Positions 42,180-64,000 of a stretch of 64,000 nt of DNA are shown here, one piece after another (the stretch's first letter is position 1; each line of letters opens with the position of its first letter). Position numbers and translations under genes: made by a program. The notes under the pieces were generated by a model. That model did not search any database. It was not told the origin of the DNA and saw only the letters and a program-made list of their open reading frames with translations. This DNA is from Streptomyces sp. Ag109_O5-10 (GTDB taxonomy: Bacteria > Actinomycetota > Actinomycetes > Streptomycetales > Streptomycetaceae): assembly GCF_900105755.1 (NCBI RefSeq), contig NZ_FNTQ01000001.1, forward strand, positions 3,100,001 to 3,164,000, given 5' to 3'.

Positions 42180-43586
42180 TCACCTCCACCGGCCGATCTC
42201 GACGTTCTCCAGCACACCGAGGGCGTCCGGGACCAGCACGGCGGCCGAGTAGTAGGCCGTGACCAGGTAACTGATGATCGCCTGCTCGTTGATGCCCATG
42301 AAGCGGACCGAGAGGCTCGGCTCGATCTCGTCGGGGATTCCGGACTGCCGCAGTCCGATGACGCCCTGGTTGTCCTCACCCGTACGCATGGCGATGATCG
42401 AGGTGGTCCGGGCCTCGGTGACCGGGATCTTGTTGCAGGGGTAGATCGGTACCCCGCGCCAGGTCGGGATGCGGTTGCCGCCGATCTCCACGGTCTCCGG
42501 GACCAGTCCGCGCTTGTTGAGCTCACGGCCGAAGGCGGCGATGGCGCGCGGGTGGGCGAGGAAGAGCTTGGTGCCACGCCGGCGGCTGAGCAGCTCGTCC
42601 ATGTCGTCCGGGCTGGGCACGCCGTCGTGCGGCTGCAGCCGCTGGTCGTACTGGCAGTTGCTGAGCAAGCCGAACTCCCGGTTGTTGATGAGCTCGTGCT
42701 CCTGGCGCTCCTTCAGCGCCTCGACGGTGAGCCGCAACTGGTGCTCGGTCTGGTTCATCGGCTGGTTGTAGAGGTCGGCCACGCGGGTGTGGATGCGCAG
42801 CACGGTCTGGGCGATGCTCAGCTCGTACTCGCGCGGCCGGGCCTCGTAGTCGACGAAGGTGTGCGGGATGTCGGGCTCGCCGCTGTGGCCGGCCGCGAGG
42901 GCGACCTCCTTCTCGCCGTACTTGTTGGTGCGCTGCTCGGGGATCGCGCGCAGCTGCTGCAGGTGCTCGCGCAAGGAGTCGGCCCGCTCGGCGACCTGCT
43001 CGAAGTCCTGCCGGGACAGGGTCAGCACGGTGCAGGCCGTGTCCGCGCGGGCGGTGTACTCCCAGATGGCGTCCGGGTCGATCAGGCCCTGCTCGCCGAA
43101 GTACGAGCCGTCGCCGAGGACGCCGAGCACCGCGTCGTCGCCGTAGGGACCGGTGCCGATCTTCTCGACGCGGCCGTGGGCCAGCAGGTGGACCTCGTCC
43201 GCCCCGTTGCCGAACGAGGCGATGACCTCGCCGGCGGCGAAGTCGCGCTGCCGGCAGCGCTGGGCCAGCTCGGCCAGCACCTCCTCGTCGTCGTACGACC
43301 GCAGGATGGGCAGCTCGCCCAGCTCCGCGGGGATGACCTCGACACGGTCGCCGGTCTTCAGGAAGGTGATACGGCCGTCGCCGACCGTGTAGGTGAGCCG
43401 CCGGTTCACCCGGTACGTGCCGCCCTGGACGTCGACCCAGGGCAGTGTGCGCAGCAGCCAGCGGGAGCTGATCTCCTGCATCTGGGGCGCGGACTTGGTC
43501 GTGGTGGCCAGGTTCCGCGCTGCCGCCGTGTCCAGAGACTGCTGCGGCTTGCCCTGATCCGTGCGGACCTCTTCGCCTACCGACAT
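42180..43586 (-). CDS. Family 2B encapsulin shell protein (EshA-like)
   Basis: A 468-residue protein of the EshA/SrpI group. An N-terminal arm (to about 90) is followed by an inserted cyclic-nucleotide-binding domain (about 92-205, phosphate cassette region [19 protein letters not shown]) and the HK97-like shell domain (about 250-468). It should assemble into a protein nanocompartment around the adjacent polyprenyl synthase. At the positions of CAP Arg82-Ser83 it has Trp175-Glu176. GGGAGGG lies about 9 nt before the ATG; an in-frame ATG at 43604 is an alternative. It is divergent from an amidase gene. Confidence 0.93.
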
Positions 43587-53034: not shown

Positions 53035-53335
53035 GTCTGTGAGCGTACCTGGCGGTATGTGGATGGCCGAAAACGCGCGACCGCGACGGAAGGGACGGCC
53101 CCGGAGACACCCGCGGGCCGCGGCGCCTGAGAGGGACCCTCAACCCTCCCGGCACCGCAGCCCGGAGCAGCAACGGCCGTGGGGTGTGCGGTCCCAGGTC
53201 GGCCGAAGGTGAGGAGCCGGGGCAGTCAGGGCAGAGAGCTCCGGTTCCTCGGTCCGCCTTCCTGTGCGGGGAAGACGGAAGAGTGTGACTGTGCCGTACG
53301 GCTGACGCCGTACTCGTTCAGCCCTCGTACGCAAT

Positions 53336-63146: not shown

Positions 63147-63157
63147 CATGACCCCCA

Positions 63158-63193
63158 GCGGGCCGCCGGGAAATTCCACCCCCGGCGGCCCGC
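63158..63193 (+). terminator. Symporter operon terminator
   Basis: A perfect 13-bp stem, GCGGGCCGCCGGG with its complement, around a 10-nt AT-rich loop. Confidence 0.8.
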
Positions 63194-63213
63194 CGTCGTC
63201 CACACTCACCCGC

Positions 63214-63720
63214 ATGGACATCGTCATCCGGGAAGTGAGACCCACCGAGTACGACGCTCTCGGCGCCATGACCGCCCAGGCCTACCTCCAGGACGGCCTC
63301 CTGGACTTCGGCGAGAGCGACTCGTATCTCACCGAACTCAAGGACGTCGCGAAGCGGGCAGCCGCGGCCACCGTCCTCGTCGCGACGGCCGGCGACACCC
63401 TCCTGGGCGGTGTCACCTTCGTCCCCGGCCCCGGCCCGATGGCCGACGTCGCCGCCCCCTCGGAGGCCGAGATCAGGATGCTCGCCGTCACCCGGGCCGC
63501 CCGCGGCCGCGGCGCCGGCGAGGCCCTCGTACGGGCCTGCGTCGATCGCGCACGGGCCGTGCCGGGCTGCACGGCCGTCGTGCTGTCCACCCAGCCGACC
63601 ATGCACACCGCCCACCGGCTCTACGAACGCCTCGGCTTCGTCCGCACCCCGGACCGGGACTGGAATCCCCTGCCAGAGCCGGCAGACATCACTCTCCTCA
63701 CCTACGAGTTGACGCTCTGA
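63214..63720 (+). CDS. GNAT-family acetyltransferase
   Basis: A 168-residue GNAT: VIREVRPTEYDALGAMTAQAY opens the fold, EIRMLAVTRAARGRGAGEALV is the acetyl-CoA loop, and TMHTAHRLYERLGFVRTPD ends it. Target unknown. CACACT ends 7 nt before the ATG and no SD is present, so the mRNA is probably leaderless. Confidence 0.9.
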   Translation: MDIVIREVRPTEYDALGAMTAQAYLQDGLLDFGESDSYLTELKDVAKRAAAATVLVATAGDTLLGGVTFVPGPGPMADVAAPSEAEIRMLAVTRAARGRGAGEALVRACVDRARAVPGCTAVVLSTQPTMHTAHRLYERLGFVRTPDRDWNPLPEPADITLLTYELTL

Positions 63721-63730
63721 CACCGCCACG

Positions 63731-63777
63731 ACACAACATCTGGGGGTGATGTGACAGCCCGGCACTAGATGTATGCT
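63731..63777 (+). promoter_or_regulatory. Two NrdR-type boxes
   Basis: ACACAACATCTGGGGG (63731-63746) and GCACTAGATGTATGCT (63762-63777) both fit the NrdR box acaCWAtATaTWGtgt with a few changes. Their starts are 31 bp apart, about three helical turns, as in known NrdR-controlled promoters. Confidence 0.75.
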
Positions 63778-63784
63778 CATGCTC

Positions 63785-63886
63785 GCTGTCGCCGCAGGGG
63801 AATCCGGTGCGAATCCGGAACTGTCCCGCAACGGTGTACTTGTGCATGTTCGTGCACAGGAGTCAGTCCGAGGACCTGCCGACAGC
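63785..63886 (+). ncRNA. Cobalamin riboswitch
   Basis: The core B12-box elements are present: GCAGGGGAATCCGGTGCGAA, then CCGGAACTGTCCCGCAACGG, and the closing AGTCAGTCCGAGGACCTGCC-GACAG. It is oriented toward the right edge. In S. coelicolor such a riboswitch precedes nrdABS (class Ia ribonucleotide reductase), and the preceding NrdR boxes agree with that. Binding of adenosylcobalamin represses the downstream gene. Confidence 0.96.
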
Positions 63887-64000
63887 ACGCCCGGCCACCC
63901 GGTCAGGGCGTTCTGACGTCCGGGCCTCGTGGAGTGGGCCAGGGTCTCGACGCGTGCCCGCGCGCGCTCGTGCTGCACCCTGCCCTCCGCCAGGCCCCGT
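63887..64000 (+). other. Leader downstream of the riboswitch
   Basis: CGTCCGGGC-type inverted sequence near 63885-63925 could belong to the expression platform. No start codon with an SD is visible before the edge, so the controlled gene (expected nrdA) lies outside. Confidence 0.5.

Follow-up and report, generated by a model that had tools for sequence, protein, structure and literature searches.

NrdR boxes and a cobalamin riboswitch in the promoter and leader of the nrdABS operon of Streptomyces sp. Ag109_O5-10

Described systems and the genes of the locus

The closest described system is the nrdABS operon of Streptomyces coelicolor (SCO5226–5224; PMC3293853). According to Borovok 2006 (cited in PMC4991794), adenosylcobalamin (AdoCbl) regulates the transcription of nrdABS in Streptomyces via a riboswitch, and it was suggested that NrdAB may serve when NrdJ has no AdoCbl available (PMC4991794, citing Borovok 2006). 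It was also reported that the S. coelicolor NrdR protein binds nrdAB with dATP and ATP, that this binding is somewhat less tight than the binding to nrdRJ, and that the core of an NrdR box contains a conserved C and a conserved G located ten bases apart, counted inclusively (PMC9110341). The spacer optimum measured for this NrdR was 15–17 bp (PMC12051234). The transcripts of the nrdABS region of S. coelicolor respond to arginine supplementation and to SenS–SenR, with ArgR and SenR as the inputs (PMC3293853, PMC4991794). For nrdAB of Propionibacterium acnes, an nrd-box and a cobalamin riboswitch were described, with termination ahead of the gene (PMC3848588).

The window analyzed here (64,000 nucleotides of the Streptomyces sp. 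Ag109_O5-10 contig NZ_FNTQ01000001.1) ends within the leader, and the next gene to the right of it encodes NrdA, with a GTG start codon at 64023 (TIGR02506, 742 bits; cut-off 341). The first-pass annotation, made from the letters of the window, had presumed exactly this gene. Next to nrdA, genes encoding NrdB (best NCBIfam match 262 bits, which is below the own cut-off of that model) and an AraC-type protein with a DJ-1/PfpI-like domain were found. Judging by the gene order nrdA–nrdB–AraC-type regulator, the downstream genes are nrdABS, and we interpret the locus as the promoter, with the 5' leader, of this Streptomyces operon for class Ia ribonucleotide reductase. The features of the locus are listed in Table 1.

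The genome contains a single nrdR gene (TIGR00244, 151.2 bits; cut-off 124.65), which adjoins the gene encoding the class II B12-dependent reductase NrdJ (NF005122, 1646.8 bits), the only NrdJ in the genome. The residues R12, D15, R17 and RRRR 26–29, named as DNA contacts of NrdR in PMC9110341, are all present in the NrdR translation of this genome.

Table 1. Features of the nrdABS promoter and leader (positions in the window)
Feature	Position	Strand	Remarks
GNAT-type acetyltransferase ORF	63148–63720	+	Upstream; stops 10 bp short of box 1; outside the system
NrdR box 1	63731–63746	+	ACACAACATCTGGGGG; core C and G both present
NrdR box 2	63762–63777	+	GCACTAGATGTATGCT; start 31 bp after that of box 1; overlaps the −10-like TATGCT; T for the second core G
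Putative −10-like hexamer TATGCT	63772–63777	+	Inside box 2; assigned from position and conservation
Cobalamin riboswitch aptamer	63785–63886	+	P1 63785–63791/63880–63886 (GCTGTCG/CGACAGC)
Post-aptamer leader (expression platform)	63887–64000	+	Continues to the start codon at 64023

The cobalamin riboswitch and the leader

The Rfam model RF00174 matched the locus at positions 63763–63920 with 38.8 bits (gathering score 31.5). The posterior values were low in the middle of the alignment and, by our own reading, its 3' half was stretched beyond the classical 3' core. The limits of the aptamer were therefore set by the ends of P1; those shown in Table 1 follow from the P1 pairing together with the classical 3' core, AGTCCGAGGACCTG. 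The 3' end obtained in this way is the one given in the first-pass annotation, whose description of a complete B12 riboswitch is borne out.

Four RF00174 matches were found in the genome, and only the match in the nrdA leader adjoins an nrd gene. The other three are located near the genes for CobD/CbiB, CbtA and a terpene-cyclase-like repeat protein. The last of these matches (L011, 5445–5586; G000:C1:6618444–6618585, minus strand) overlaps the start of the ORF of the repeat protein, and a likely transporter gene lies further on. Two other RNA families were matched in the window, namely the Streptomyces sRNA scr5239 (53123–53281, minus strand, 166 bits) and the Saccharopolyspora antisense RNA Sernc350 (43048–43547, plus strand, 129.5 bits); the latter match might reflect nothing more than a conserved coding region.

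The conservation within the genus was evaluated using 81 loci, namely this genome and the 80 top loci, all from Streptomyces, out of 593 confirmed in a single-protein search. Three core motifs of the aptamer occurred together in 81 of 81 leaders of this set (best 80 of 593 plus this genome). These counts depend on how the motifs are written: a strict expression for the 3' core matched 28/81 leaders and a looser one 81/81, and one expression for the 5' core matched only 77/81. P1 was paired at 79–81 of the 81 loci, as were the pairs of a hairpin located further in the leader at about 63917–63952 (best 80 of 593 plus this genome in both cases). Compensating changes in the aptamer stems were few and the Streptomyces stems hardly vary, which makes covariation of little use here. 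The minimum-energy fold of the whole leader was only moderately better than that of shuffled sequences (z −2.06) and did not reproduce the textbook aptamer.

No T-tailed intrinsic terminator was found in the leader. This leaves room for a reading in which the dual control is real and the riboswitch masks the ribosome site, acting on translation instead of ending transcription early. Read by eye, the leader contains a conserved CCTCG that could pair with CGAGG of the ribosome-binding region, which agrees with such a mechanism. However, the title of Borovok 2006 states that transcription is controlled, and RNA-seq of P. acnes indicated that much transcription ends before nrdA (PMC3848588). Since termination in P. 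acnes occurs before the first gene, early termination in the leader is favoured, and we consider action on translation unlikely.

NrdR boxes, the promoter and their conservation

For the first box scans, and for locating the boxes upstream of nrdR, we used what we take to be the core motif of NrdR boxes. A position weight matrix (PWM) was then built solely from the upstream regions of Streptomyces nrdR (nrdR–nrdJ) and contained no nrdA sequence; 28 of 30 nrdR loci were used, and L137 and L152, in which the script did not locate the NrdR start, were left out. With this matrix, the pair starting at 63731 and 63762 ranked first on the given strand of the window with 30.0 bits. The second-ranked pair (25.3 bits) shares box 1, and pairs that include neither of the two boxes scored 6.0 bits at best. 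Box 1 was the top single 16-mer among 63985 scored on the given strand and box 2 was the third. In the rest of the window, the best pair reached at most 12.0 bits over 100 stretches (50 segments, both strands), compared with 30.6 bits at the locus; the latter value differs from 30.0 bits as it was obtained with a rebuilt matrix with the spacing fixed at 31 and another pseudocount and background. A looser IUPAC pattern of both cores had a single occurrence in the window and none in 100 shuffles, which is weak evidence, the pattern having been written after the site was seen.

Read directly from the sequence, the boxes are 31 bp apart from start to start, as first described, and the 15 bp spacer between the two 16-mers, which places them about three helix turns apart, is within the published 15–17 bp optimum. 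The gap between boxes and riboswitch, previously given as 8 bp, is 7 bp from box 2 to P1; the figure depends on where the box is taken to end. A third box-like 16-mer (63699–63714), which starts 32 bp upstream of box 1 and gives a pair score of 25.3, was considered as a part of the operator. It was set aside because it falls within the last part of the GNAT coding frame and only 21/81 Streptomyces loci score at least 7 of 10 there.

The layout of two boxes and an aptamer and the anchor ATGTATGCT were both found at 81/81 Streptomyces loci (best 80 of 593 plus this genome); the start-to-start distance between the boxes in this set was 31 bp at 51 loci and 32 bp at 30. Over the 81 loci, the information content climbs from near zero ahead of box 1 to higher values within it, drops in the spacer and comes close to its maximum from box 2 onwards into the aptamer. 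The core C and G of box 1 are both present at 81/81 of these loci, and the hexamer TATGCT inside box 2 is likewise invariant (81/81). In box 2, the C is kept and the second conserved G is replaced by T, again at 81/81 loci (best 80 of 593 plus this genome in all three cases). Because a scan for consensus sigma-70 promoters returned 0 sites, the assignment of TATGCT as a −10-like element was made from position and conservation.

NrdR binding here may be weak, as box 2 is without one conserved core G in every Streptomyces examined. Together with the less tight binding at nrdAB than at nrdRJ in S. coelicolor (PMC9110341), the replacement at 81/81 loci (best 80 of 593 plus this genome) could mean that the boxes are relics, bound too weakly in vivo, and that the riboswitch is the sole working control. 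We regard this as quite improbable: both boxes are conserved while the flanking bases vary, the spacing is 31 or 32 bp throughout the same 81 loci, and the binding of NrdR at nrdAB was measured in S. coelicolor (PMC9110341).

For a comparison outside the genus, upstream DNA of 53 nrdA genes was collected (10 from the same order and 43 from the rest of the class), and 52 loci were scored after one with 69 bases up to the contig end (L195) was left out. Boxes were counted as present above 12.0, which is the maximum of the 100 window stretches. A box pair and an RF00174 match above the gathering score were found at 44 of the 52 loci, boxes only at 6, a riboswitch only at 1 and neither at 1; two of the six loci with boxes only contain RF00174 matches below the gathering score (L229 and L230, 26.1 and 30.2 bits). 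L020, another locus of the class, also has the boxes and the riboswitch. Among loci assigned only to the same phylum, L031 contains boxes and a riboswitch, L024, L027 and L028 contain a riboswitch and no box pair above the cut-off, and L032 and L033 contain boxes and no riboswitch match. At the 50 loci outside Streptomyces with boxes, G occupies the altered position of box 2 in 49, the C and G cores of both boxes are intact in 45, and TAGGAT is common at the place of TATGCT. That the boxes are a chance likeness, their conserved bases being merely promoter elements, is scarcely credible: the overlap with the −10 region gives part of the conservation of box 2 another cause, but a matrix from an independent promoter gives the pair a clear lead over all others, box 1 has no such overlap and the cores of both boxes are kept in those 45 of 50 loci.

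Four loci (L189, L228, L234 and L237) have NrdR boxes upstream of nrdA and no detected cobalamin aptamer, and all four genomes contain a class II gene; in L189, the boxes are close to the likely start codon. The class II model matched in 53/53 genomes searched, including those with no detected aptamer, and the match was above the cut-off in 52/53, the exception (G260) being truncated by a contig end. Loss of the class II reductase was considered as an explanation of riboswitch loss; a match in every one of the 53 genomes searched leaves no contrast for this comparison. In three genomes (G299, G403 and G450), the class II match of nrdJ is split at model position about 158–161 by roughly 1 kb in open frame, which resembles an intein.

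Proposed control and comparison with known systems

All these characteristics lead us to conclude, with a probability of about 0.94, that the nrdABS leader is under dual control by NrdR and an AdoCbl riboswitch. The present analysis directly shows the parts of this system, how they are ordered and conserved, which genes are regulated, and which protein is NrdR. At high dATP, NrdR carrying dATP and ATP would bind both boxes as a tetramer, cover the −10 region and block initiation; the mechanism of the repressor loaded with dATP and ATP follows PMC9110341. At low dATP, transcription would begin just before the aptamer, at a start site that we infer, and the cobalamin aptamer would lie no more than about 10 nt from the 5' end of the nascent transcript. 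Binding of adenosylcobalamin to the aptamer would then refold the leader and turn nrdABS down, and we propose that this happens because the B12-dependent NrdJ can then supply dNTPs. NrdR binding, AdoCbl-dependent control and early termination are carried over by analogy from the S. coelicolor and P. acnes papers, and we infer the same behaviour for Streptomyces sp. Ag109_O5-10.

The sequence of this genome and the published work on S. coelicolor thus both support the suggestion of the first-pass annotation that NrdR and the riboswitch control the same gene. Its further claim, that cells produce the class I enzyme only if the class II enzyme is without its cofactor, is too strong in the word "only", as there are also the ArgR and SenR inputs. 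In dual control of this kind, one layer responds to the product (dNTPs) and the other to the cofactor that the alternative enzyme needs.

The T-for-G change in box 2, found throughout the Streptomyces loci examined at the overlap with the −10-like element, is a possible reason for the less tight binding of S. coelicolor NrdR at nrdAB than at nrdRJ, and it is a simple and testable one. A more extended reading can be put forward tentatively, and as a whole we hold it to be rather doubtful. Box 2 would double as the −10 element, the aptamer would start within about 10 nt of the transcription start, and this unit would be fixed in a large part of the class Actinomycetes; the Streptomyces operator would have been weakened by the invariant T to fit TATGCT. 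The B12 layer would then dominate at nrdABS and NrdR would only fine-tune it, and relatives with an intact box 2 would lean more on NrdR, some having lost the aptamer. In our literature searches, which were not aimed at either point, we came across no paper describing the altered box 2 or boxes that lack an aptamer, and no novelty is claimed for them.

The nrdR–nrdJ promoter of Streptomyces likewise has two NrdR boxes with a distance of 31 bp; however, none of the four cobalamin riboswitches of the genome is located there. The P. acnes nrdAB genes resemble the locus, as their promoter contains an nrd-box and their leader a cobalamin riboswitch (PMC3848588). The difference is that one nrd-box is reported there and two are present here, and that in P. 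acnes a riboswitch also accompanies nrdDG (PMC3848588). The similarity is greatest with S. coelicolor nrdABS, including the order nrdA–nrdB–AraC regulator, the cobalamin riboswitch before nrdA, the nrdAB promoter, which is bound by NrdR in S. coelicolor, and the companion nrdRJ operon. No substantive difference from that system was found in a comparison made by description rather than base by base. By its sequence, this genome keeps the published two-layer control of the class I reductase, which is common in actinomycetes; the locus is an orthologue of a known element, and both control layers of Streptomyces nrdABS have already been published.
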